Below, piece after piece: positions 4,200-63,531 of a DNA stretch of 64,000 nt; the stretch's first letter is position 1, and each line of letters opens with the position of its first letter. The DNA lies in IMG/VR virus record IMGVR_UViG_3300033146_004399, positions 115,367-179,366 of that record; one strand, given 5' to 3'. A model generated the notes under the pieces. The model was given only the letters and a program-made list of their open reading frames with translations. It made no database searches and was not told the DNA's origin. The translations under genes were made by a program, and so were the position numbers. Source of the stretch: a virus.

Positions 4200-4553
4200 T
4201 TATGCAATTCTAATTTCTAAATTATTACCATCTGATAACATAAACGCTTCTCCATCAATTGTAAAAGCATTTTCTCCAAATGCTACATTAGGTTGTACAT
4301 CATCAGTAAGATCGTCATCTTCTATAATGATTGCATTCTTAGTAAATGATGCAATTTTACCAGTAACATTCCATTCCATTGCTACACCAAAAACCTCTGT
4401 TGGTAAAAGTTCTGGTTCCGTAATTATTGTATCAGCATTTATAGCAGCGTCGTATAAAGACCTTGCACTTTCTACCAATTCGGTATCAGTAAAACTGCCT
4501 TTGTCTCTACGTCTAATTTGATATTTTATTTTTTTTAATCTATCTTCAATCAT
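4200..4553 (-). CDS. fibre-cassette small protein, copy 3
   Basis: 117 aa. One of three paralogues (others at 7429-7791 and 9516-9875), each directly upstream of a fibre gene. Shared features: N-terminal RLKKIKYQI basic helix, S.YDAAINAD in the middle, PTE..G..L.W and a DDLTD strand. It could be a fibre chaperone or connector. Strong AAAGGAG site. No known domain recognised. Confidence 0.6.
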   Translation of the reverse strand: MIEDRLKKIKYQIRRRDKGSFTDTELVESARSLYDAAINADTIITEPELLPTEVFGVAMEWNVTGKIASFTKNAIIIEDDDLTDDVQPNVAFGENAFTIDGEAFMLSDGNNLEIRIA

Positions 4554-7428: not shown

Positions 7429-7791
7429 TTACGCTGTTTGTAATTCAAAAATTTCGTTATTTATATAGAAAAACTCATTATTAGTTTGAAAAGCTCCTGT
7501 GATGAGTTGATCATTTATCGTTGGTGTTACTTCATCTGTTAAATCATCATTATTGATTTCATATTCTCCACCATCAATTGAAAGTGAGAGATTATCCGCA
7601 CTCCATAATAAAGTGAGTCCTAAAGCTTCAGTAGGGAAAGTGTCTCCTGAGAGATCAGGAGAATCTGCATTTATAGCAGAATCATATATAGATTGAACCA
7701 TAGGTATTCTATCTGCAACAGACCAATCACCATCTTGTTCTTTAAGAATTTGATATTTTAATTTCTTTAGCCTCTCTTTAACTTCTTGCAT
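7429..7791 (-). CDS. fibre-cassette small protein, copy 2
   Basis: 120 aa paralogue of 4200-4553 and 9516-9875 (ERLKKLKYQI, SIYDSAINAD, FPTEALGLTLLW, NNDDLTDEV). It precedes the fibre gene 6422-7414 by 14 bases, the same layout as the other two cassettes. AAAGGAGT ribosome binding site. Confidence 0.6.
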   Translation of the reverse strand: MQEVKERLKKLKYQILKEQDGDWSVADRIPMVQSIYDSAINADSPDLSGDTFPTEALGLTLLWSADNLSLSIDGGEYEINNDDLTDEVTPTINDQLITGAFQTNNEFFYINNEIFELQTA

Positions 7792-9516: not shown

Positions 9517-9875
9517 TATAATGCTCCTCCATAATATGATTTACCGAAATACCCCATCCCAATATTTGGGGAATTTACATAATTTCTTTTTTCTATATTT
9601 TCTGCTGTTAAGTCTTGAATAACGTAAACGCCAGTTTTTTTAATTTTAACTATTGTATCATTGTCCTCTCCAGCACTCCAATCTAAATTACAATCCAGAA
9701 AAGTGGTTGGCATTTCGGAATCTTGTACTGTTGTAAGGTCATTTAGTACAAGACCATTAAGAGTAGATTCTGCAGCAGCTACATAATCTGCGTCTTCCCA
9801 GTTTACTAATATACCAGGTTTTTGTGGTTTTAAATGTTGAAACTGTATTTTTTTTAAACGATCTAATCGTGTCAT
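9516..9875 (-). CDS. fibre-cassette small protein, copy 1
   Basis: 119 aa, most diverged of the three cassette paralogues: it keeps the RLKKIQFQ N-terminus, PTTFLDCNLDW in the middle and a DLT element, then a Gly/Tyr-rich end (GMGYFGKSYYGGAL). Directly upstream of the 435-aa fibre. Possible chaperone or hinge; no known domain. Confidence 0.55.
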   Translation of the reverse strand: MTRLDRLKKIQFQHLKPQKPGILVNWEDADYVAAAESTLNGLVLNDLTTVQDSEMPTTFLDCNLDWSAGEDNDTIVKIKKTGVYVIQDLTAENIEKRNYVNSPNIGMGYFGKSYYGGAL

Positions 9876-29086: not shown

Positions 29087-30127
29087 ATGTCATTCAGTAA
29101 AAAGGTTGTAATCGGTGCAGGTCAATGTGGCACCCGACTTGCAAGCAAATACGCTCTTGATGGAGATAAACTCATCGCCTTCAATACAGACAGTAGAGAT
29201 TCAGGCGGAGAGAATATAGCCAATGACCATATTCTTGTAGAAGGTGGAGCTGGCCAGAATTATTCAAAAGGTTTAAAAATATGGTCTCAACAAAGAGAAC
29301 ATGTAGAAGAAGCTTTAAAAGATATAAATGAAGAATATGTAGTATATTTTATTTCTGCTGGAGGCGGTTCTGGTTCATCCTCTGTTATAACAATTCTAAA
29401 TATTCTCCTAGAGCAGGAGAACAAAATTTTATTAGTAGTTGCTCTTCCCTTTCTTAAGGAATCAATTCCAGCAACGTCAAATGCAACTCGGCTCTTAAGT
29501 AAAGTTGCAGAATTTTCAAACAATATGTCTGTCCTTCTTATGGCTAATGATGAAATTGGTAAGCAGGTTGGGAGTCTATCATTTGATAAAATCAATGATG
29601 AGATTGTACGTAAGACTCGTATCATTACAGATATAATAAATCTTCATAATGATAAATATTTTACACCATTCGCGATAGACGAAGGAGATCATTCCTCTGT
29701 AGCTTTCTCTGGTGGTTTTATAAACCTCTCATTTGACTCTTTATACCAGGAAGTCGAAGGTGAGATGAAAATTAAAAGTCCTAAATTTTCTTATGGTTCA
29801 ATAAAAGAAGCAAGTAATATTCTTATTGTTAAAAATATTCCCACAAATAGAAATCATACTGAAGCTATGAAAGAAGGCGACTCCCTTGTTCAAGCTGCCA
29901 TGAAAGTTTCTTCTTCTGGAAAAGGTGCTAGAACATTATATGGTGCTATAAGGACAGATAAGAATGTAGCAGAATATACAACAATCGCTTCCGGTATTGG
30001 TATAGATAAAATCTTTAATAAAATGAAGAATAAAGCTACCAACTCTGCAGTTCAATATATTGGTAAAGTTAAAACTAAAACTAAGAAGAAGCTGGAGAGA
30101 AAAGAAGACAGAGTATTGGACATATAA
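29087..30127 (+). CDS. phage tubulin/FtsZ-like GTPase
   Basis: 346 aa. Tubulin-superfamily GTP-binding loops are in order: T1 GAGQCGTRLA (10-19), T2 AFNTDSRD (31-38), T3 GGAGQNYSKG (53-62), T4 glycine loop AGGGSGSSS (91-99, for GGGTGTG), T5 ALPFLKE (119-125), and MANDEIGKQ with N154-x-D-type residues. A basic C-terminal tail (KVKTKTKKKLERKEDR) follows. Related phage proteins (PhuZ, TubZ) form filaments that position or carry phage DNA or capsids. I cannot tell which of these it is closest to. Strong AAAGGAG site. Confidence 0.82.
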   Translation: MSFSKKVVIGAGQCGTRLASKYALDGDKLIAFNTDSRDSGGENIANDHILVEGGAGQNYSKGLKIWSQQREHVEEALKDINEEYVVYFISAGGGSGSSSVITILNILLEQENKILLVVALPFLKESIPATSNATRLLSKVAEFSNNMSVLLMANDEIGKQVGSLSFDKINDEIVRKTRIITDIINLHNDKYFTPFAIDEGDHSSVAFSGGFINLSFDSLYQEVEGEMKIKSPKFSYGSIKEASNILIVKNIPTNRNHTEAMKEGDSLVQAAMKVSSSGKGARTLYGAIRTDKNVAEYTTIASGIGIDKIFNKMKNKATNSAVQYIGKVKTKTKKKLERKEDRVLDI

Positions 30128-32004: not shown

Positions 32005-33330
32005 ATGAATCAAAATATAGATTTAGGCGATTTAATTGTAGATATGTACAGGATGTGTAATCAAGATCAAACATTTTTGGTTCGTATGATGGCACACTTA
32101 GATAAAAGTTTTTTCCTCTCATCTAAAATATTTTCAAAAGTATTTATACTCTATAAACTCTATTTTGAAAAATATCAAAAAGCTCCAACAGAAAAAGTTT
32201 TAAGACATGAACTTACTAAAGCTGGTGAAAACGAAGATGTTGTTAATGGTGTAGTAGATGAGATTTTTAGTCAGAAAATATTCAACCATGGTGAAAAAGA
32301 CTATATAACAGATTTAGTAGTAATGCATGCTAGAAAAGTTAATGTTGAGAAAGCAATAATGCTTGCCAGTGATAAAATCAATGATGGCGACGATTTCACA
32401 GATGAGAAGTTTAGAGAAATTTTAGCAGATGTAACAGAGAGTATAAAATTTAGTATTGATACAGATTTAGGTATAGATTTGTTTGATATAGATGAAAGAT
32501 ATAATAGAATTGCTAATTCTATGGGTAATAAAATATCTACAGGTTTTTCAAATCTTGATCATATAACGGGGGGTGGTTTCGCGCGTAAAGAGCTTCACGC
32601 AATACAGGGACCCCCTGGATTGGGTAAAACAATTTTTTTAGTCAACTTAGGCTTTAAATTTCTTGTGGGTGGGTACAATGTAGCTCACTATTCTTTAGAA
32701 ATGGGCGAAGAGCGACTTGGTCTTAGATACGATGGTGTAGCATCTGGTCAAACTATTAATTCACTCATGAGATTGGAAGGGATCGATGACGTGAAAAAAG
32801 CATATAAAATGCTTAAAATGATGACTAAAACTCATCTCAAAATGAAAGAATTTCCGACTGGAGCAGCATCTACTTATGATATTGAAGCACATTTAGATGA
32901 ATTAGCTCTTTATGAAGATTTTACGCCAGATGTAATCGTTGTGGATTATGGTGATATCATGAAGTCAACTAGAAATACAAAAAATACATATGAAGAACAA
33001 GGTTGGATATTTAGAGAATTAAGAGCTCTAGCAATTAAAAGAGATTGCGTTGTTTTAACAGCTACTCAGTCACGCAGGGATGCACTTAAAGAAGATGGCG
33101 GTACCAAAGATATTATTGGTATGGATCAAGTTGCAGATTCAATGGAAAAAAATAGGATTCTCGACCTCCTCCTATCAGTACAACAATCTAGAGAAGAACG
33201 TGACGAAGGTCGAGTAGGGTTATGGGTTGCTAAAAATAGAAATGGAGCAGCTAACCTTAAGATTGATTTCCTTATTAATTACAGAAATATGAAACTTTCA
33301 GAACCTCAGGTAAGTACTGGTGGTGTTTGA
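32005..33330 (+). CDS. replicative DNA helicase (DnaB/gp41-like)
   Basis: 441 aa. RecA-type helicase core: ISTGFSNLDHITGGGFARKE, Walker A GPPGLGKT (202-209), SLEMGEERLGLR, Walker B VIVVDYGD (about 305-312), TATQSRRDA and late VADSMEKNRI. The N-terminal ~155 residues are a helical domain like the primase-binding collar of DnaB. It unwinds DNA as a hexamer ahead of the phage polymerase. No intein or intron is seen. It follows primase in the same unit. Confidence 0.9.
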   Translation: MNQNIDLGDLIVDMYRMCNQDQTFLVRMMAHLDKSFFLSSKIFSKVFILYKLYFEKYQKAPTEKVLRHELTKAGENEDVVNGVVDEIFSQKIFNHGEKDYITDLVVMHARKVNVEKAIMLASDKINDGDDFTDEKFREILADVTESIKFSIDTDLGIDLFDIDERYNRIANSMGNKISTGFSNLDHITGGGFARKELHAIQGPPGLGKTIFLVNLGFKFLVGGYNVAHYSLEMGEERLGLRYDGVASGQTINSLMRLEGIDDVKKAYKMLKMMTKTHLKMKEFPTGAASTYDIEAHLDELALYEDFTPDVIVVDYGDIMKSTRNTKNTYEEQGWIFRELRALAIKRDCVVLTATQSRRDALKEDGGTKDIIGMDQVADSMEKNRILDLLLSVQQSREERDEGRVGLWVAKNRNGAANLKIDFLINYRNMKLSEPQVSTGGV

Positions 33331-33345
33331 TAATAGATACACTAA

Positions 33346-33636
33346 AATATTCTTCTTGGTAATAACTGCCACAATTGCCAGTACATAGTAGATGACAAAA
33401 TAAAACGTATGAAGAGTAAAAAAGTATATAGCATGAATTATATTTGCTCTAAGTGGAAACAGGCTAGAAATGAAAATATTTTAGATCGTAATTATTATAG
33501 AAATAAATACGTTGAAGATAGAGAGTTTATAAATTTAGTGGTTGAAGTTAACAGGTTATTAAAAAAAAAGAACAAAGGTAAAGTGAAAAAAATACCAAAA
33601 AAAAACATTAAAATAAGTTATTGTACGGAAAGATAA
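33346..33636 (+). CDS. Cys4 small-protein family member with long basic tail; start disrupted
   Basis: The frame reads NILLGNNCHNCQY...YICSKWKQ, the family pattern (AKNILxGxxCxxC...CxxW), then a 60-residue Lys-rich tail. No ATG/GTG/TTG precedes the CxxC part in this frame (a TAA is at 33343). One base upstream in the other frame, TTG ATA ATA GAT ACA CTA AAA would supply the missing start, so a one-base shift near 33348 or a rare ATT start is implied. A shorter product from ATG 33409 would lack the CxxC. Confidence 0.5.
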   Translation, partial: NILLGNNCHNCQYIVDDKIKRMKSKKVYSMNYICSKWKQARNENILDRNYYRNKYVEDREFINLVVEVNRLLKKKNKGKVKKIPKKNIKISYCTER

Positions 33637-39820: not shown

Positions 39821-40098
39821 GTGAAGCTAAAGATAAAAGAATAATTGATGCATATATGAAAAAGCACCCTGATGCTTCCATACAGAAAATTGAATCTTAT
39901 GCTCAAAAAAAGGGTATCCATATTACAGTTATGCCTCAAACTGAACATCAAAGATTAAAAACAAAAATGATGAAAGATGCTGGTCTTGATGCTAATTTAG
40001 ATTTAGGAAAAGAGAGTGATCAAATTAAACTATTGGAAGCTGTTAATTCTCTTCCTAAAGAAAAACAATCTGAGTTTTTAGCGATGATGAAAAAATGA
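39817..40098 (+). CDS. hypothetical helical protein
   Basis: 93 aa, Lys-rich, helical, with a central hinge (GIHITVMPQTEHQ). Not recognised. Four-base overlaps with both neighbours. Confidence 0.5.
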   Translation: MSEAKDKRIIDAYMKKHPDASIQKIESYAQKKGIHITVMPQTEHQRLKTKMMKDAGLDANLDLGKESDQIKLLEAVNSLPKEKQSEFLAMMKK

Positions 40099-40322
40099 GT
40101 ATTCAAGGTTTAGCTATGGCACTCTTATCAAATCATGTTTGTGATAATTGCGATAATCAAACTTACCTTATATATAATGATTCTGATATTGGATGTTGGG
40201 AAAGTATGTCAAATAATCCTGTAGCTAGATGCTCTTTAAAATTGAAGCAAGGAACAAATAAACATAAAACTTGTCCAAGAGTAAATACTTGTAAAAAATG
40301 GAGCCCAATAATTGAAAGATAA
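40095..40322 (+). CDS. Cys4 small-protein family member
   Basis: 75 aa. GLAMALLSNHVCDNC, then C.., C.. and CPRVNTCKKWSP: the CxxC...CxxW pattern of the family, with extra cysteines (seven in all). Likely a zinc-binding knuckle. Overlaps the next gene. Confidence 0.6.
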   Translation: MSIQGLAMALLSNHVCDNCDNQTYLIYNDSDIGCWESMSNNPVARCSLKLKQGTNKHKTCPRVNTCKKWSPIIER

Positions 40323-41707: not shown

Positions 41708-41983
41708 ATGAGTGAAAAAAATACTTTAAACCCTGGCAAAGCGAAACATGTTAAAATGGGTCAACTTTTGGTTGCTAAAGATACTAAGTTGGATCAAGCT
41801 ACACATAAGTTTCCTTTTGATTTTATTTTTTATAATTACTATAGAATCGAAGACGGATTCATAGTATATCAAGAAATGTATTCTGAGAATCATGAAAAGA
41901 AATTAAATAAAATGATGATTCCTGATACTATGATAGATGATTTTATGACATTTATTGCCGAAGAACAACTTTTAAATGACTGA
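41708..41983 (+). CDS. hypothetical protein
   Basis: 91 aa, soluble; MSEKNTLNPGKAKHVKMGQL then a mixed domain with YYRIEDGFIVYQEMYSEN. No ribosome binding site before the first ATG, so the start is uncertain (next ATG 17 codons on). Not recognised. Confidence 0.5.
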   Translation: MSEKNTLNPGKAKHVKMGQLLVAKDTKLDQATHKFPFDFIFYNYYRIEDGFIVYQEMYSENHEKKLNKMMIPDTMIDDFMTFIAEEQLLND

Positions 41984-42152
41984 TAGCGCTGCAGCAATCT
42001 CCCACCTCCTAAACAAAAGTTGTGCCAATTGTATACATTGTATACAAGAATCGTCTGTATTCTGTACTTTTAGAATGACATCACCCTCAGCTTTCACATG
42101 TGATAAATGGAAAAAATTTACAACTTTCACGTGGAATTTAACACCTAAATAG
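41976..42152 (+). CDS. Cys4 small-protein family member
   Basis: 58 aa. ISHLLNKSCANCIHCIQ...FCTFRM...FTCDKWKKF: family pattern CxxC...C...CxxW, followed by a short basic tail. Overlaps the previous gene by eight bases. Ends in TAG inside an AGCATATTTT element. Confidence 0.6.
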   Translation: MTDSAAAISHLLNKSCANCIHCIQESSVFCTFRMTSPSAFTCDKWKKFTTFTWNLTPK

Positions 42153-42692: not shown

Positions 42693-42954
42693 AGCTATAG
42701 CTGCCTTAACTGAGAGTATATATATTCAGCCTAAAGATATTGTTGGGGTGGGATTTATATCTGATGTTAATACTCGTGATGTTGAAACAATGGAAGTTAC
42801 TTATAGAGGGCAATCATTTACCAAACCAACCAGACACCTAGACCAAGAAATAACTGTAAAATTAGATTATATGACTAGAGAATTGACAGCTATGATTATG
42901 TCAGGTGATGTAAAAGTTGTGATCATAAAACACAGAGGAGATTTACATGTTTAA
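42679..42954 (+). CDS. hypothetical protein
   Basis: 91 aa from ATG 42679, eight bases after AAGGA; overlaps the previous gene by 14 bases. Beta-rich (VTYRGQSF, DQEITVKLDY). Not recognised. Confidence 0.5.
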   Translation: MEHNEAIAALTESIYIQPKDIVGVGFISDVNTRDVETMEVTYRGQSFTKPTRHLDQEITVKLDYMTRELTAMIMSGDVKVVIIKHRGDLHV

Positions 42955-43201
42955 TAAAAAGAAAATAAAGAATGCTAAAGAAGAATTTCAGAGAGACTTC
43001 AAAGAATTTATTAGAGACCTCCTATTTGAAGATACTGGTTCTGCTCTTGGAAAAGCACATAGATTTATTAAACCTTTTTTAGACAGTGGATTAGTTGACA
43101 GTTTTGGGTTTGACGTAAATAAAAGCGGGACTACAAATACTCTTATAAAATATACAGATGGTGATTCTATAGCTTATACACTCTTCGATGAACAGTCCTA
43201 A
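42947..43201 (+). CDS. hypothetical protein
   Basis: 84 aa, opening MFNKKKIKNAKEEFQRDFKE, helical first half then a beta half. The opening resembles 40571-40786. GGAGA site upstream, overlap with the next gene. Not recognised. Confidence 0.5.
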   Translation: MFNKKKIKNAKEEFQRDFKEFIRDLLFEDTGSALGKAHRFIKPFLDSGLVDSFGFDVNKSGTTNTLIKYTDGDSIAYTLFDEQS

Positions 43202-43451
43202 AGCTGCTAAGAATATATTAGCAGGGAAAAGCTGCTATGATTGTAGATTTTTTAAGAATGATAAATGCCGTTACGGAAATTTATCGGAAGAATTATGGTG
43301 TGATCAGTGGGATAGTCCAAATGGTGCTCATAAGTTACGTGTCAATTGGACCAAGGAATCTGAAAAAGATATTAAAGCTTACCGTGGACTAAATGTTGAA
43401 GAAGAATTAATTAAAGCTGTCCAAACAGAAATAGATAAGGAGTTGAAATGA
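43188..43451 (+). CDS. Cys4 small protein with a major-capsid-like tail
   Basis: 87 aa. Residues 6-43 are the family core: AAKNILAGKSCYDC, C, WCDQW. From residue ~48 the tail KLRVNWTKESEKDIKAYRGL...EEELIKAV..EIDKEL aligns without gaps to residues 299-338 of this phage's major capsid protein (KLKAMWSQESEQDLKAYHGL...DAELTALV..EMIAEI), about 17 of 39 identical. The gene therefore pairs a likely zinc knuckle with a copy of a capsid segment. Overlaps neighbours on both sides. Confidence 0.7.
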   Translation: MNSPKAAKNILAGKSCYDCRFFKNDKCRYGNLSEELWCDQWDSPNGAHKLRVNWTKESEKDIKAYRGLNVEEELIKAVQTEIDKELK

Positions 43452-43930
43452 TATATGATAAAAGAATGGATGCTTTATTAACACAATATCGTAATAAACT
43501 AACAGATTCACTTGAGTCAGTAACGACGCCAACTACAGAAAGGAAGGTGAGAGTTAATACTCCTTACGGATATGAATATAAAAGTAAGATGGTAAAATTT
43601 AAAAGATTGGATTGGAAAGGCACTCCAATTAAATGGGGTTTCAATGATGCAGAAGCAGAATTTAATACTAATAATTTTGAAGAACATTTTGTAGTAGCAG
43701 ACAGAAAACGTATGGATAAAATCATGGCTCACACTTTTAAAACTTTTGATAGCTATATAGATAAAGAGGTGGCTAAAATCCTTTTAGAAGGACACTCTGC
43801 ATTCTTCAATTATCGTGATGCAATAGATGTTACTGTTGAAGTTACAGAGAGTTGTGTCTCTCCTAAAGGAAATTGTATTACCCATATTATTCTTAAACCT
43901 TCAATAACTATAGCGGTTGAAGATGGTTGA
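43448..43930 (+). CDS. hypothetical protein
   Basis: 160 aa, not recognised. N-terminal helix, basic middle (GYEYKSKMVKFKRLDWKG), then a helical and beta region. Coupled by overlap to the two Cys4 genes that carry capsid-like and portal-like tails. Confidence 0.5.
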   Translation: MIYDKRMDALLTQYRNKLTDSLESVTTPTTERKVRVNTPYGYEYKSKMVKFKRLDWKGTPIKWGFNDAEAEFNTNNFEEHFVVADRKRMDKIMAHTFKTFDSYIDKEVAKILLEGHSAFFNYRDAIDVTVEVTESCVSPKGNCITHIILKPSITIAVEDG

Positions 43931-44162
43931 GGAAGCCAAAAACATCCTTATAGGGAAAAGTTGTTATGATTGTGCATATCTACAAAAAAATAATATATGT
44001 AGTATTGATTCTAAAATAATACCTGAAGAAAAAAGTTGTCCCAGTTGGTCTCCACCAAGTGAGAATTTAATAGAAAAACTAAGAGATCAAATAGTGGCAG
44101 TAGTAGGTGTACCAAAGGAGTATTTATATGGAAAGAAAAATAATGGAAGCATGGCACGATGA
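43923..44162 (+). CDS. Cys4 small protein with a portal-like tail
   Basis: 79 aa from ATG 43923. Core EEAKNILIGKSCYDC...C...SCPSW (residues 4-42). The tail RDQIVAVVGVPKEYLYG followed by K-N-N-G-S resembles the portal segment KDQILRTMGIPTGYLGG followed by N-S-S-D-A-G, which lies shortly after the intein in gp20. About nine of 23 positions match, weaker than the capsid case but in a conserved portal stretch. Overlaps the previous gene by eight bases. Confidence 0.6.
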   Translation: MVEEAKNILIGKSCYDCAYLQKNNICSIDSKIIPEEKSCPSWSPPSENLIEKLRDQIVAVVGVPKEYLYGKKNNGSMAR

Positions 44163-46411: not shown

Positions 46412-46921
46412 ATGTTATTAAAATTTGTAAAGACAAGAGAAGTAGAAAGTCCAAATAGAGGACACGCAACAGATGCAGGAATTGATTTTAGAATGCCTGA
46501 GTTTAGTGATGAATTTAGAGAAAGTATTCATAATAATGACGCGAATACTGGCTCATATTTTGATGGGGATAAATTAATTATACCTGCCAACTGCAACACC
46601 GTTATTCCATCAGGTATAAAAGTTGAAATACCATTTGGTTATATGGGGATGTTTGCAGATAAAAGTGGAGTGGCATCTAAAACTGATTTAATAGTAGGCG
46701 CAAAAATTATAGATACCTTCTATTCAGGTGAGGTACATATCGATCTTCACAATATTGGTAAAAGTGAAGTTCGTCTTGAAGCCGGACAAAAACTGGCTCA
46801 GATGATTTTGATTCCCATCTTAAATTGTGATTTAACTGAAGTTGGTGAAGATCAGCTATATGATTGGATGAAGCCAGATTCTATAAGAGGCGAGGGCGGA
46901 TTTGGCTCTACTGGTAAATGA
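46412..46921 (+). CDS. dut: dUTP diphosphatase
   Basis: 169 aa trimeric-type dUTPase. Motif 1 ATDAGIDFR, motif 2 DKSGVASKT, motif 3 GAKIIDTFYSGEVHIDL (catalytic Asp and uracil-binding Tyr), motif 4-like GQKLAQMILIP, and motif 5 RGEGGFGSTG. It turns dUTP into dUMP and PPi, keeping uracil out of DNA and feeding dTMP synthesis. AGGAG site; an AGCATAATTA element upstream. Confidence 0.92.
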   Translation: MLLKFVKTREVESPNRGHATDAGIDFRMPEFSDEFRESIHNNDANTGSYFDGDKLIIPANCNTVIPSGIKVEIPFGYMGMFADKSGVASKTDLIVGAKIIDTFYSGEVHIDLHNIGKSEVRLEAGQKLAQMILIPILNCDLTEVGEDQLYDWMKPDSIRGEGGFGSTGK

Positions 46922-47157
46922 CGGAATTGTATAATATTGTTGCCAGCAATATAATAGCTGGCAAACAATGTATAAATTGTGTATGGTCTAAAAAAGCCAC
47001 TCCTGGATTTATACATTGTTTAAATGATAAAGACTATAAAGATTCTATAGGTACTAATGATATAAGTATAAAAGATTACGCTAAAACTATTTTATGGAAG
47101 GAGACGTATTCTTGTGAATGTTGGCACGGTGGTGAGAAATCTCCTCCTAGAACATAA
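46918..47157 (+). CDS. Cys4 small-protein family member
   Basis: 79 aa. VASNIIAGKQCINCVWS...HCLND...YSCECWHGG: CxxC...C...CxCW. Overlaps the dUTPase stop by ATGA. First of a run of eight related genes up to 48.5 kb. Confidence 0.6.
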   Translation: MTELYNIVASNIIAGKQCINCVWSKKATPGFIHCLNDKDYKDSIGTNDISIKDYAKTILWKETYSCECWHGGEKSPPRT

Positions 47158-47315: not shown

Positions 47316-47522
47316 GTGGAAAGTGGCAAAGTAACAGATAGGAAGAAGTGTAAAAACTGTATCTATATAAGACGTAAAAGAAACAAATTTTATTGTTCTA
47401 ATAATATTCAAGTTACTAATATAATAGGTGTAGATATTGTTACAGCGTCTAATTTATTAGCTTCAGGCGGGAAGGTACAAATTGATGAGGACGGAACATG
47501 TGAATACTGGTCAGATTGCTAA
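47316..47522 (+). CDS. Cys4 small-protein family member, GTG start
   Basis: 68 aa. DRKKCKNCIYIRRKRNKFYC...GTCEYWSDC: CxxC...C...CxxW, but the conserved helix ASNLLASGG sits between the third and fourth Cys rather than before the first. CGGAGAA ribosome binding site. Confidence 0.55.
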   Translation: MESGKVTDRKKCKNCIYIRRKRNKFYCSNNIQVTNIIGVDIVTASNLLASGGKVQIDEDGTCEYWSDC

Positions 47523-47757
47523 AAATGTTCTCCTAGAGAGAATTTGTGATAATTGTACTCATTACGTCGATAACGATTTTGACGTTGGTGGAATATGTAG
47601 AAAAAATAGTCTCGACCTACCTGGGAAATCTATACCTAAGGAAAATACCTGTCTTGAGTGGAAAGAAGGTTTCCGCCTTGAAATTAAAATGACATCCATC
47701 CCCATAACAGTTAAAGCAAGGAAATTGAAGATTAAATGGACTAAAGATGCTGAGTAA
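47485..47757 (+). CDS. Cys4 small protein with a major-capsid-like tail
   Basis: 90 aa from ATG 47485. Core IAKNVLLERICDNC...ICRKN...NTCLEWKEG. The tail, EIKMTSIPITVKARKLKIKW then TKDAE, aligns to major capsid residues 285-309 (RITIGNIPVAVKTRKLKAMW then SQESE), 11 of 26 identical and most others conservative. This segment directly precedes and partly overlaps the one copied in 43188-43451. Overlaps the previous gene by 38 bases. Confidence 0.68.
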   Translation: MRTEHVNTGQIAKNVLLERICDNCTHYVDNDFDVGGICRKNSLDLPGKSIPKENTCLEWKEGFRLEIKMTSIPITVKARKLKIKWTKDAE

Positions 47758-47902
47758 AAATGAAAAAGCTAAAAATATTCTTATAGGGAAAGTGTGTAAG
47801 AATTGTATATATAAACATCCGTATAAAGATTATTATTGTTTCTTCTATGATATTAGAATATTTAAAAATATATGTAAGGACTTTAAATATAATGACAGAT
47901 GA
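47747..47902 (+). CDS. Cys4 small-protein family member
   Basis: 51 aa. EKAKNILIGKVCKNCIYK...YCFFY...ICKDFKYND: CxxC...C...C, with Phe in place of the usual Trp. Overlaps both neighbours. Confidence 0.55.
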   Translation: MLSKNEKAKNILIGKVCKNCIYKHPYKDYYCFFYDIRIFKNICKDFKYNDR

Positions 47903-48112: not shown

Positions 48113-48295
48113 ATGGAAAATCATACTAAAGCTAAACATCTTCTTTTAAATCATAATTGTTATAATTGTGATTTCTATTTTAAAAAGTTTAATAATTGTA
48201 TGATGTTAATGATTAAGGAACATGTAACTAAAGAGAAGGCAATTTTGCCGAGAGAGTTAATTTGTGACAATTGGAATAATGAGCAACAACAATAA
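48113..48295 (+). CDS. Cys4 small-protein family member
   Basis: 60 aa. TKAKHLLLNHNCYNCDFYF...NCMML...LICDNWNNE: full CxxC...C...CxxW pattern. Overlaps the next gene by 17 bases. Confidence 0.6.
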   Translation: MENHTKAKHLLLNHNCYNCDFYFKKFNNCMMLMIKEHVTKEKAILPRELICDNWNNEQQQ

Positions 48296-48494
48296 GATCG
48301 TAGCGGAAGCTAAAGCGTTATTAGCTGATAAAAATTGTAAAAATTGTAAATTTAATTTAATCCATGCTAGTTGGAATGCAATGAACCTGGAAGAGTGCGG
48401 CTGGTGGTATCATAATGACAGAGGGAGCAAAAAGTCACTTAATCCTCCGCCAGTAAAAGAATACGGAGCTTGTAAGTTATGGAAACATGTTTAA
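48279..48494 (+). CDS. Cys4 small-protein family member
   Basis: 71 aa from ATG 48279. VAEAKALLADKNCKNCKFN...ECGWW...GACKLWKHV: CxxC...C...CxxW. Last member of the run; a new promoter follows. Confidence 0.6.
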   Translation: MSNNNKIVAEAKALLADKNCKNCKFNLIHASWNAMNLEECGWWYHNDRGSKKSLNPPPVKEYGACKLWKHV

Positions 48495-55384: not shown

Positions 55385-56936
55385 TCAGGGTAAATCCTTA
55401 ATATCAATCTGAGTATATAAAAGTTGTCCATGAGGAACTTGAGTCAATCCATATCGTGCTAAGAAACCACGTCTTGGGTTAAAATCATTTTCACCCACGA
55501 ACAGGTGTGAGGTTAGTTACATATGGACTATAGACCAAACCAGCGCCAAAAGGAGACTGAGGAGATTTGTGACCCATAAGAATTTTGTCATCTGGAAACA
55601 TAGGATCTTTATAGATATCATATCGACCAGCATAAGTACCGGCTTTAACAATATTCATACCCATGGAAGCAGTAACAGGATTAGGAATGAAGCCTTTAAG
55701 AACTTCAATATAAGAAGCAACTTTAGTACCAACAATCATCCAGTTAGCAGGACCAATTTTTGATTTTCTGAATACTTCATTACTAGCTCTAGTAACTTTT
55801 TGCATAAGAGCTAAGTGAGCATCAAGGTAATTACCTGATGTGTTGTTCTGAGCAAAAGAATTCCAGTCATAAGTAAAGCGTGAAGATGCAGGAACAAGAG
55901 TCATAACTTTTTGAATTATCTCTCTGTCTATTTCAGCAATCATTTCGTTAGAAACAAGAGCTGTAAGTTCAGCATCAGCACTTAAACCATGATAAGCCTT
56001 TAAATCTTGTTCAGATTCTTGTGACCACATAGCTTTGAGCTTACGAGTTTTAACAGCAACAGGAATGTTACCGATTGTGATTCTCATCTCAGGAATTTGT
56101 TCTGTAAATTCAAGATCAGTTTTGTACCAAGCTTTAATAGCAGTTTCAGCACCAGCTTGAGCACCATTGTAAACAACTTTAAGATTTCCAGCAGCATAAG
56201 TGATAGTAAAATCACCGTTTAAAGAACCAACTCTATCAGCGCTTCTTACTTGAAAGTTAGTAGCATCAAGTGAAGAGAAGGAAAATGTTTCTGAGAAATC
56301 ATCAGCACCAGTTAATTCAATAGTACCAAGAATCATAGCTGAATTTTCAACATTAACAGCACCGGCAGTTGCCTGCATTGGCCAAATGTTTTGAATAGCT
56401 GTTTTAGGAGCAGCAGAAATAACACCATTAAAAGTTCTAGGTGGAAGTACATCAGGGTTGATATCAATGTCTGCGTCAGCACTACCAACAGCAGAACCAG
56501 AGAAAGGTCCAATTTCGTCGGTGGAGTAGTAAGGATTATATCCTTCCTGAGCACCAGCTTGTTCTTCAAACATAGAGTATTCAGGATAATCAGTACCTGT
56601 ATAACCACTAGCTGGGTTACCTGGTCTTTCTGTTCCCATCTGATACTTTAAGTAAAAGATGATACCTGCAGGAGCCGCAATTGGCTGTACAGATACAATG
56701 TTATTTGCAATTAAGTTAGGGAATACACGTCTAACTATAGGAAGCATGATTTTTTGAAGACCTTGTACATCACCTTGAGTGGTTGCACCAGGAGCTTCTG
56801 TTAAATATTTTGCTTCATTTTCTAGAAGAATAGCAGTATTTTCTACTGTATATTCATCTGAGATACCTTCGAGAAATGGTGACCATTTCTTAAGAAGTCT
56901 ATCTTTTTCTTCTTTCATTAATCTTTGAGCGTCCAT
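55385..56936 (-). CDS. major capsid protein (gp23-like), C-terminus in the +1 frame
   Basis: The frame from ATG 56936 encodes 481 aa and stops at TGA 55491-55493. It shows gp23-family features: IMLPIVRRVFPNLIANNIVSV (63-83), QPIAAPAGIIFYLKY, and the conserved IPVAVKTRKLKAMW...QDLKAYHGLSADAEL (291-324). Skipping one base at CGT-GGG-TGA continues GENDFNPRRGFLARYGLTQV and on to TGA 55385, 35 more residues containing the G-F-x-x-RYG motif that gp23 homologues have near their C-terminus. The sum, about 516 aa, equals T4 gp23 size. So a +1 frameshift (programmed, or a sequence error) is needed for the full protein. ACGGAGG site. Confidence 0.85.
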
Positions 56937-60192: not shown

Positions 60193-63100
60193 TTATTTAC
60201 TCATCTTCACCTTTTCGTTTAATGTGCGCTGTATTTTATTTGAGCTTCTATAGGCTTTTAATAAACCCCTAAATTCTCCCTCAATGATCATTCGGGTTGC
60301 ACTATTCTTTTGCTCATATTTTATCTTGTCACTATTATTATCTTTATGTACTTTTTCGTAAAGATTAACATATTTTAATAATTTTTCAACATCTTTATTG
60401 CTTTCAAAGAGCCATTTACCACCATCAAACTCTATAAAATTGGCTCCAGCAACTTCTAATCCTGCTTCTCCGCCACCAGCAGGAGGTGCTTCACCGCCAG
60501 CAGGTGCTTCTTGCCCTCCCATTCCACCTTCAGGAGGTCCACCAGCTGCTCCGCCAGAAGCTCCACCACCCATTATATTGCCACCAAGATTTCCACCGCC
60601 AGCCATATCCATTCCTCCACCAGCAGATGCACCAAGATTTTGCATTTGAAGTTGCATCTGCATTTGCATTTGAATTTGCAATCTAATCTTCTGTATTTCT
60701 TGTTCAGACATACCAAGTATTTCTTTGTAAATCCATTCATCAGGTAAAAAGTTCTCTAACGTTCTAACTTGTTGTATAAGGGCAAATTGTTGATTTCTTA
60801 TCTCTATTTCCATTAACTGGTCTACATTAGATGGAGGTGTTAATTTAATTTTAAAGTCTCTTATTTCTTTAGAATCTATTTTTGAAAATACCAATTCAAT
60901 AAGAGCAATTTTTTCTAAACCTTTAATAATTAACTTCTGTATTCTTTCTATAGTTCTTGAAAATTGAACTTCTTGATTGGAGAGATACGATTTAGGGTCA
61001 TATGTTCCTGCACCAGCATCAGATGAATTACCACCAAGGTAACCAGTAGGAATACCCATAGTTCTTAATATTTGATCTTTGAAATATTTAACATCATCTA
61101 TCTCACCTAAATTTTGCCCACCAGGAAGTGTCTCAATTCTTGTCCCTTGACTATTCTGCCTTACGGGAATATAAAAGTCTTCGTCAACCGAATTATGAAC
61201 AAATACACCAGCTTCAGTTGCAAAGTTGTGATACTTCTCGATAGTTATATCACCAGTATCTTCTTTATAATCAAGCCATTCTATTTTAGTGACTTTATGA
61301 TTTTGATAATTTGACTGTTTAGATAAAAGTCTCAATTCTTTCCACGATTTCAAGCTCAATTTGTTTAAAATATTATAGTATTGCTTTCTACTAATTTCTT
61401 CTTGTAGTATAAAGTCTTGCATTTTATTATACTCAGAAGCTTTATCTAAGCAAATTGTTTCTATATTATCTAATCTTTGTGTTATAGAACTTAATACATT
61501 ATAATTATTTCTGATTAATACATTTTTTATGTATGTATATAAAAATCCGTTTTCTTTACAAAAGTTTGTAATTTCGTGTGAATATATTATAGCATTTTTT
61601 GTAAAATGTTGATCAATAACAAGTAATGTTTCTTCTTCCTTTTTTTTCATTTTTTCTTGAAATTTTTGAGTAGCAAGTTTTGTGTTTGGTGTTCTAAGAC
61701 TTTTAGTTTTTACTCCGCAAACTTCTTTTAACCACTGTTCGGAAGATTCATATCCTATTTCTCTCATAGCTTTTACAATAAAATGTGCATTAGGACCATT
61801 TACTTGTTTATTTGGTTTACAAAAGGTTTTCCATTCTTGCATCAATTTATTGTTGTTACACGCATTTTCCATAACATTAACGATAGATATATAGCCTTGA
61901 CTATTTGGCTGTGTTTCTTGTGCTATATTTTTCAAAAGAGACCAAAATTTATTTGTGACTTTATTTCTTATGGTCATCCCATTGATATATTTTTGTCTTA
62001 ATTTTGGATCAGAGAATTGCTTTTTCATATTTTTCGATCTTATATCGTTATAAATGTAAGACATATTTTGATGTAATTTTCTATGATTACTAAATGACAT
62101 TACTTTTAAATTATTAGGAGTATTGTTTAATTTATTAAAATCTTTGTGATGAATCGTTTTATTATTGTTAAAAGATGTAAATTTTCTATTTTTCCAATCA
62201 TCATACATATTTCCTACTAATCTGTGAGTATATTCATATTTACTAGTTTTTGGATTATATATTTTTTCATAACCATCAATTTTATCCCTATCTTCTTTAG
62301 AAGACAGTTTAGTATAGAATGGCATTAAAGCTTGTCCGTTTTTAAGATCTTGCGCTTCGCAATAAGAACCATCCCGCAACATAAATCTATGGTCTGGTGT
62401 TGTTCTCAATTCCTCGCCATTATCTAAAGTTACTTTAATTAATTTTGCATTCTTTCTAGTTACATCCGCCCATATAATTTTACCAGGTACTATTTGATTA
62501 TCATTTTCAACATCTATAGAATATGTCCAATTTTCATTACCAGATTTATATTCTTCAATCAATTCTGTTAGTGAAAGACTTCGACCATCTAAAAGTGGAA
62601 TTTTAGTATCTAAAGTTATACATAAAGGATTTGCCTTTTCATCTACTTCACCTGTTGTAGGATTAATAAATTTCTTTTTGCGGAATTGTCTTTTCAACGT
62701 TTCCATAAATTTATTAGCTTCTTTAGTTGGCATGGTACCGACATCTACATAAAATACTCTTCTCTCTGGAGCTCTTGATATTCTATATATAAGCATAGCG
62801 TCTTCCATAAGAGAAAGTTTTTTAAATGTCTTTCTGCCTGATTCTAATATAGAACGACCATATGGTTCAAATTCTTCATCCTCAATCCTGAAGTGAACAA
62901 TCTGCCATGGTTGAAAAACTCTATTTTCCTTCTCTTCATCTTCATATTCATATCTGAATTCAATAAGATTACCTTCCCTCTCAACTCTCTTCATATTCTC
63001 AGGTTTCTTAATTCTCTCCAAGGAGATTATATGTTTTGGATTATCTACGTTATCTACTATAACTTCAAGGAATTCATCACCTAATTTACAGGTATTTCTT

Positions 63101-63531
63101 ACTATGGACCAAAGATTAGAATTCATATCTAAATTTTCAAACATTAATTTATCAACAATTTCAATAATTTTATTGTTATCTGAACCAATTTCCATAACAT
63201 TTTTTTGAACATTAAATTGAGTTCCATTATCTGCATAAATGTTAATTGATTGATTAAGTTCAGGAATACGTATCATTTCTCTATATTCTTTATATCGAGT
63301 TGTACGATTGTTTGATGTTACAGTAGCTTCTTCAAGCCATGCGAAGGACTGCCAGCCAGGAGCATATGAGCCTTGATCTTTTGCAACTTCGGAAGGAACA
63401 TTTAAATCACGAGAACGGATTTTATATTTATTAATAAAATCTTGAATTTTTTTAGCGTTTTTATCAACTTTATTTTCACTAGTACTGTCGCCCTTACCAC
63501 CAAAAAAACCCCATCCGGTCTGTCCTGCCAT
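60193..63531 (-). CDS. portal vertex protein (gp20-like) containing an intein
   Basis: 1112 aa precursor: N-extein 303 aa, intein 477 aa, C-extein 332 aa; spliced portal 635 aa. Portal features: GWQSFAWLEEATVTSNNRTT, EYREMIRIPELNQSI, PWQIVHFRIED, EPYGRSILESGRKTFKKL, and after the intein DEDFYIPVRQNSQGTRIETL, PGGQNLGEIDDVKYFKDQIL. A Met/Gln repeat and a Gly/Ala/Pro-rich linker (~residues 960-1040) precede a basic helical end. It forms the dodecameric DNA gate of the head, nucleates assembly and binds the packaging motor. TAGGAG site. Confidence 0.92.
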   Translation of the reverse strand: MAGQTGWGFFGGKGDSTSENKVDKNAKKIQDFINKYKIRSRDLNVPSEVAKDQGSYAPGWQSFAWLEEATVTSNNRTTRYKEYREMIRIPELNQSINIYADNGTQFNVQKNVMEIGSDNNKIIEIVDKLMFENLDMNSNLWSIVRNTCKLGDEFLEVIVDNVDNPKHIISLERIKKPENMKRVEREGNLIEFRYEYEDEEKENRVFQPWQIVHFRIEDEEFEPYGRSILESGRKTFKKLSLMEDAMLIYRISRAPERRVFYVDVGTMPTKEANKFMETLKRQFRKKKFINPTTGEVDEKANPLCITLDTKIPLLDGRSLSLTELIEEYKSGNENWTYSIDVENDNQIVPGKIIWADVTRKNAKLIKVTLDNGEELRTTPDHRFMLRDGSYCEAQDLKNGQALMPFYTKLSSKEDRDKIDGYEKIYNPKTSKYEYTHRLVGNMYDDWKNRKFTSFNNNKTIHHKDFNKLNNTPNNLKVMSFSNHRKLHQNMSYIYNDIRSKNMKKQFSDPKLRQKYINGMTIRNKVTNKFWSLLKNIAQETQPNSQGYISIVNVMENACNNNKLMQEWKTFCKPNKQVNGPNAHFIVKAMREIGYESSEQWLKEVCGVKTKSLRTPNTKLATQKFQEKMKKKEEETLLVIDQHFTKNAIIYSHEITNFCKENGFLYTYIKNVLIRNNYNVLSSITQRLDNIETICLDKASEYNKMQDFILQEEISRKQYYNILNKLSLKSWKELRLLSKQSNYQNHKVTKIEWLDYKEDTGDITIEKYHNFATEAGVFVHNSVDEDFYIPVRQNSQGTRIETLPGGQNLGEIDDVKYFKDQILRTMGIPTGYLGGNSSDAGAGTYDPKSYLSNQEVQFSRTIERIQKLIIKGLEKIALIELVFSKIDSKEIRDFKIKLTPPSNVDQLMEIEIRNQQFALIQQVRTLENFLPDEWIYKEILGMSEQEIQKIRLQIQMQMQMQLQMQNLGASAGGGMDMAGGGNLGGNIMGGGASGGAAGGPPEGGMGGQEAPAGGEAPPAGGGEAGLEVAGANFIEFDGGKWLFESNKDVEKLLKYVNLYEKVHKDNNSDKIKYEQKNSATRMIIEGEFRGLLKAYRSSNKIQRTLNEKVKMSK
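61192..62622 (-). mobile_element. intein with HNH endonuclease in the portal protein
   Basis: 477 aa, from Cys1 (CITLDTKIPLLDG) to the end GVFVHN, followed by Ser as +1 residue. Block B lies at RTTPDHRFMLRDG (T-x-x-H), block F/G at YHNFATEAGVFVHN. The middle carries an HNH-like nuclease (YTHRLVGNMYDDW, NKTIHHKDFNKLNNTPNNL, SNHRKLH), so the intein can probably home. The insertion falls at ANPL|S-VDEDFYIP, a conserved portal stretch, as expected for selection against loss. Confidence 0.92.

Follow-up and report, generated by a model that had tools for sequence, protein, structure and literature searches.

The window analysed here, a stretch of 64,000 nucleotides, belongs to a 179 kb virus record (phage A) and carries a small open reading frame, T1, in which four cysteines (C16, C19, C27, and C38) precede a tail that resembles part of a gp23-type major capsid protein (MCP) (Table 1). 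The N-terminal part of T1 conforms to the family core AKN(I/L)(L)xGxxCxxC ... C ... CxxW, and the consensus AKNILxGKxCxxC...C...CxxW recurs in about 15 copies in the 179 kb record, most of them inside the window. This Cys4 family is undescribed and hugely expanded, and the spacing of its four cysteines suggests a putative role in metal binding. The genes lie on the plus strand near those for a helicase, PRPP synthetase, and dUTPase, away from the minus-strand block that runs from the portal gene to the MCP gene.

Two protein families of unknown function, PHROG 30102 and PHROG 31018, matched the Cys4 core weakly (E = 0.0018 and 4.4e-4), but they have the core elsewhere in the profile, and no MCP-like tail is known for them. 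The high-potential iron-sulfur protein family (PF01355) matched T2, a second Cys4 protein, and no other member, at E = 0.083 and 13.6 bits, below its cutoff of 22.

Table 1. Positions in the window of the Cys4 genes, the capsid-like segments, and the MCP and portal genes
Feature	Position	Strand	Score
T3, small ORF lacking the Cys4 core, weak MCP-like segment	28874..29056	+	segment HMM E=0.009; 0.006 with wider profile
Cys-core paralog without a third Cys; tail RNYYRNKY	33355..33636	+	
Cys-core paralog, weak	40095..40319	+	E=0.0031
Cys4 paralog, short tail	41976..42152	+	
T1, Cys4 protein with MCP-like tail, 87 aa	43188..43451	+	
T1 Cys4 core, residues 6-41, AKNILxGKxCxxC ... C ... CxxW	43203..43310	+	
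T1 MCP-like tail, residues 49-86, gap-free against MCP 299-336	43332..43445	+	
Cys4 paralog with portal-like tail	43917..44162	+	
Cys4 paralog	46918..47157	+	
Cys4 paralog	47316..47522	+	
T2, Cys4 protein, 91 aa, MCP-like tail stopping after the strand-helix junction	47482..47757	+	
T2 MCP-like tail, LEIKMTSIPITVKARKLKIKWTKDAE	47677..47754	+	segment HMM E=1.3e-6
Cys4 paralog overlapping the 3' end of T2	47747..47902	+	
Cys4 paralog	48113..48295	+	
Cys4 paralog	48264..48494	+	
MCP, gp23 type	55491..56936	-	PF07068 E=7.5e-65; matches T4 gp23 structures
MCP segment 284-340 resembled by tails, strand and kinked helix	55917..56087	-	
Portal protein, gp20 type, intein-like HNH insert; residues 802-838 are the motif resembled by the tail of 43917..44162	60193..63531	-	

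Several other features of the window were noted. The T4 late-promoter motif TATAAATA occurs 37 times on the two strands, against 21 occurrences expected, and some of the sites (for example, 46384, 48548, 7465, and 23367) lie 11–43 bases upstream of genes. Three small minus-strand proteins (4203-4553, 7432-7791, and 9519-9875) have a segment in common with a 676-residue protein of a second phage, phage B (G019:30320-32347). Two assignments were discarded: the ORF at 32005-33330 (441 aa), considered as an MCP, proved to be a DnaB-like helicase, and a resemblance by eye of 42947-43201 to a tail sheath protein found no support in Pfam or PHROGs.

The capsid-like tail of T1

The sequence-only reading of this locus had proposed that T1 joins a Cys4 core to a capsid-derived tail, with 17 of 39 residues identical to MCP residues 299-338. 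Our ungapped alignment of K49-L86 with residues 299-336 of the window MCP contains 17 identities over 38 positions, in agreement with that count, and identity to the MCPs of another clade is 18/38, again without gaps; residues 298-340 form the part of the MCP with which the tail aligns. Pfam and PHROG profiles and a profile of the segment itself also bore out the proposed pairing. PF07068 (Gp23) matched whole T1 at E = 8.2e-5 and 22.6 bits and the tail alone, which covers profile positions 145-186, at E = 3.2e-5 and 24.0 bits, just below the curated cutoff (24.4 bits). T1 also matched PHROG 138, the major head protein, at E = 4.8e-4, and a tblastn search with T1 reached the MCP of Xanthomonas phage XaC1 (4e-3). 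When all ORFs of the virus record were searched with an HMM of the segment, constructed from 27 MCPs of phage A and related phages, T1 scored E = 4.5e-9. In phages A and B, a wider MCP-segment profile picked up the MCPs, three Cys4 proteins, two more ORFs with weak scores, and nothing else; reversed ORFs gave zero matches to it at E ≤ 3. The concern that the tail might lie nearer to an unrelated family was not borne out, as gp23, and no other family, came out nearest to the tail in the profile searches.

Judged by these profiles, the tail of T1 is homologous to a segment of gp23-type MCPs (PF07068/PHROG 138), namely that leading from a strand into the presumed spine helix. The homology of T1 to PF07068 is confined to this segment and falls short of the curated cutoff. 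Unlike an MCP, T1 has a capsid-like part of only about 40 residues, which is joined to a Cys4 core; the complete HK97-type fold extends over several hundred residues, and T1, with 87, covers only MCP residues 299-336.

AlphaFold2 predicted a kinked helix for the T1 tail (residues 56-67 and 70-86), with a block mean pLDDT that climbs to 85-92 at the end, and a Foldseek search with the T1 model returned no match. A poor model of the MCP (mean pLDDT 42) places helices at 306-316 and 320-347, in register with those of T1. By alignment, the T1 segment corresponds approximately to residues 265-302 of T4 gp23. From general knowledge of the HK97 fold, we take the copied element to be the strand returning from the E-loop together with the start of the spine helix.

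The reading frame of the window MCP stops early (55388-55500, minus strand). Its last ~35 residues (intact in phage B) are encoded in a different frame, by an overlapping 37-residue ORF, and the break is either a true frameshift or an artifact of sequencing or assembly.

To judge from codon-level divergence, the tails did not arise as a recent DNA copy of the MCP gene, and we rejected that source. The T1 segment is identical to the MCP gene at 58 of 99 nucleotides and uses the same codon at 9 of the 16 shared residues. Because this identity is low and the T2 tail has no DNA similarity to the MCP gene, neither tail is a recent copy. T1 matches 14/26 of the sites that are invariant among MCPs and 3/12 of the variable ones, and for T2 the corresponding values are 9/11 and 2/13. 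This pattern looks like that expected of an old descendant under similar constraint, and because the matches fall mostly at invariant sites and nucleotide identity is low, the tails look old and retained. A search for close orthologs of T1 and T2 for dN/dS analysis found none. The suggestion that the tail is a fragment spread by recombination and kept requires an old event to be compatible with the missing identity at the DNA level.

Further capsid-like tails and a second phage

The T2 tail matches the MCP strand just upstream of the T1 segment and the strand-helix junction. T1 and T2 thus resemble parts of the MCP element that overlap and complement each other, the helix in T1 and the strand in T2. 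The T2 tail shares 11/24 residues with the MCP of its own phage and 14/24 with MCPs of another clade. The description of a tail copied from the phage's own capsid protein is therefore partly off, as the T2 tail lies closer to the MCPs of that other clade.

Two records from one sample, IMGVR_UViG_3300037086_000398 (G019, 114 kb) and IMGVR_UViG_3300037086_000360 (G026, 250 kb), gave 38 and 20 matches to the Cys4 profile. Because they share a sample, correlate at 0.994 in tetranucleotide composition, carry complementary sets of homologs of phage A genes, and join up colinearly (a tubulin-like gene ends one and its next neighbor begins the other), we treated them as one phage, phage B; they appear to be pieces of a single genome of ~364 kb. 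The homolog of the tubulin-like gene in the window (29087-30127, plus strand) encodes an FtsZ/tubulin-like protein, as judged by its GGGSGSS motif. Phage B carries its own gp23-type MCP (on G019), its own portal protein, and ~58 Cys4 copies, and it differs from phage A in base composition. The remaining related records have few Cys4 copies each. That one phage should carry ~58 copies of an uncharacterized family is unusual, whatever their function.

Scanning DNA for the pattern of the Cys4 core, rather than that of the tail, located a protein of phage B (L133:1528-1863) in which a Cys4 core is followed by ISIHLTSTPITIQARKLNVTWTTESVLDMASTL... Among 45 tails, the L133 tail matched the MCP-segment HMM at E = 3e-9, and alone it matched PF07068 at E = 5e-5. 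It aligns with the tail of T2 at ~1e-7 and with that of T1 at ~1e-3, and it comprises the strand and a diverged helix. Conservation of the tail in relatives had been named as a test of the original reading; phage B does have this MCP element attached to a Cys4 core, so that two phages conserve the pairing. Phage B also encodes a 255-residue protein with hydrophobic N-terminal stretches (L208, G026:122636-123400) that contains SKQLKVNWKKDS...GINPEDEWIKLLQ, a segment that resembled the T1 tail at E = 3.7e-5 in one test and 0.27 in another.

The combination of a Cys4 core with an MCP-like tail was absent from every other phage or genome searched. Queries of viral contigs (IMG/VR) with T1, T2, L133, and the Cys4 consensus yielded no additional phage, and the tail DNA pattern was found among viral contigs in phage B only and among genome contigs only in chance matches, such as secretion proteins. 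Plasmids gave no Cys4 match. In isolated phages, the T1 segment matched MCPs only, with second-place matches that we presume to be gp24, and the L133 protein matched MCPs and, weakly, chance sequences. The segment was confined to the MCP in 25 related MCP-bearing records, most of which are fragments. A brief search of the open-licence literature found no description of an MCP-derived tail on a Cys4 scaffold.

Possible roles of the tails

Our leading guess, which we hold tentatively, is that the tails act as capsid-mimicking decoys of host defenses. The tail would be a peptide mimic of the MCP strand-helix element and would bind a factor, most likely a CapRel-like host capsid sensor, that recognizes this element on newly synthesized MCP. 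The sensor would then be occupied without assembly of a shell, and late infection would not be aborted; the Cys4 core would serve as a small metal-stabilized scaffold common to members with varied tails. CapRel is a host sensor of the HK97-type MCPs of siphophages, its pseudo-zinc-finger domain has been modeled by AlphaFold, with support from HDX, in contact with the β-sheet of the MCP P-domain and the spine helix, and the escape mutants L114 and I115 lie in the contacted region (PMC9712102). As we judge it, the region sensed by CapRel corresponds to the copied element; the CapRel paper itself describes no decoy of this kind (PMC9712102). This correspondence makes a decoy indirectly more plausible, and we rank it first because the element is in our judgment equivalent to the CapRel contact and because the family has many members with varied tails. 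The size of the family (~15 and ~58 copies) and the diversification of its tails resemble those of arms-race gene families. Against a decoy, the CapRel case concerns MCPs of siphophages and a modeled contact, and a fragment bearing the sensed element might trigger the sensor instead of blocking it. The pairing is also found in two phages only, and the parts kept differ (the helix in T1, the strand in T2, and the strand with a diverged helix in L133).

If the tails are mimics, phages would be deploying parts of their own capsid protein outside the virion, mounted on a small scaffold, and the proteins would form a class of counter-defense or assembly-control proteins whose tails would indicate which parts of virion proteins are recognized by host systems. 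A short gp23 peptide with a function outside the capsid is Gol, of the Lit/Gol system of T4, but Gol lies in the first quarter of gp23 and the T1 tail corresponds to residues ~265-302 (PMC3014915). Because the Gol peptide lies elsewhere in gp23, an explanation of the Lit type does not fit, and we discarded a Gol-type peptide that binds EF-Tu.

Nearly as likely as a decoy, and likewise more doubtful than probable, is a regulator of assembly or a capsid accessory protein, in which the tail would bind the MCP, the scaffold, the prohead protease, or a chaperone through the usual strand-helix contacts and so slow, steer, or decorate head assembly. Such a role would suit a segment that belongs to the structure of the phage's own MCP family, and it also agrees with the kinked helix predicted for T1, which is the same as in the low-confidence MCP model. 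A small phage-encoded protein that disturbs virion assembly is known in Tab, which is encoded by a prophage, but Tab blocks tail assembly and has no shown relation to the MCP (PMC10884400). The position of the Cys4 genes outside the head operon argues against an assembly role, as does the lack of any such protein near MCPs or in the 25 related MCP-bearing records, many of them fragments; moreover, the parts kept vary among members, and the tail contains only part of the MCP fold.

It is rather unlikely, in our estimate, that the tail is a captured fragment that mimics nothing, that is, that a Cys4 gene gained a piece of MCP by recombination and the tail is now of use to the Cys4 protein itself, as a helical extension. 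Duplication is frequent in the tandem array, and Cys4 tails are highly variable, most of them having no detectable relatives, as this explanation would predict. It accounts less well for the concentration of the match at MCP-invariant sites and for the retention of the tail by two phages that differ in base composition.

Variety among the other Cys4 tails

When 30 Cys4 tails were compared with PHROGs and Pfam, gp23 was the sole convincing family, matched by two members. A comparison of the tails with 190 protein families from phages A and B likewise gave a clear match only to the MCP, and shuffled tails reached E = 2e-4. Two tails resemble each other at E = 3e-5, that of 43917-44162 (LIEKLRDQIVAVVGVPKEYLYG) and that of G026:68102-68290 (ITMLREELLKNLGIPKDYLFPSK), and they were the best two of 45 tails for a profile of a portal segment (1.2e-4 and 0.0024). 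The portal match did not rise above shuffled tails over the 190 families, and among 194 small ORFs the tail of 43917 was second-best at E = 0.055, the best reversed sequence scoring 0.086. The portal likeness of this type of tail is thus a lead that is only suggestive. A broader version of the decoy, in which one Cys4 scaffold displays varied segments of virion proteins (the MCP spine element, the portal motif, and possibly others) as decoys or competitors directed at the host's sensors of virion proteins, seems to us improbable at present, about on a par with the captured fragment.

A third recurrent tail type, RNYY[RK]NKY, is present in 33355-33636 and in G029 (L181) and has no known relative. 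The only conserved part common to the MCP-like tails is the junction K/Q-L-x3-W-T/S-x-E/D. A shorter, similar motif, h-x-W-[TSND], is present in 11 of 60 tails (~9 without duplicates), against 1.5 expected from shuffles, and it would fit a short binding motif for a common partner (a chaperone, a translation factor, or a phage protein) that may bind both the MCP and the Cys4 tails. We consider this the least likely of the explanations, as the motif was picked after the sequences had been seen and the match between T1 and the MCP, at ~38 residues, is far longer than the motif.

The portal ORF has 1112 residues in the window and 668 in phage B, and portal ORFs of relatives at the same place range from 793 to 1478 residues. 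Residues ~307-781 look intein-like, with a cysteine after ANPL at the start, VFVHN before a serine at the end, and matches to HNH endonucleases at 415-517.
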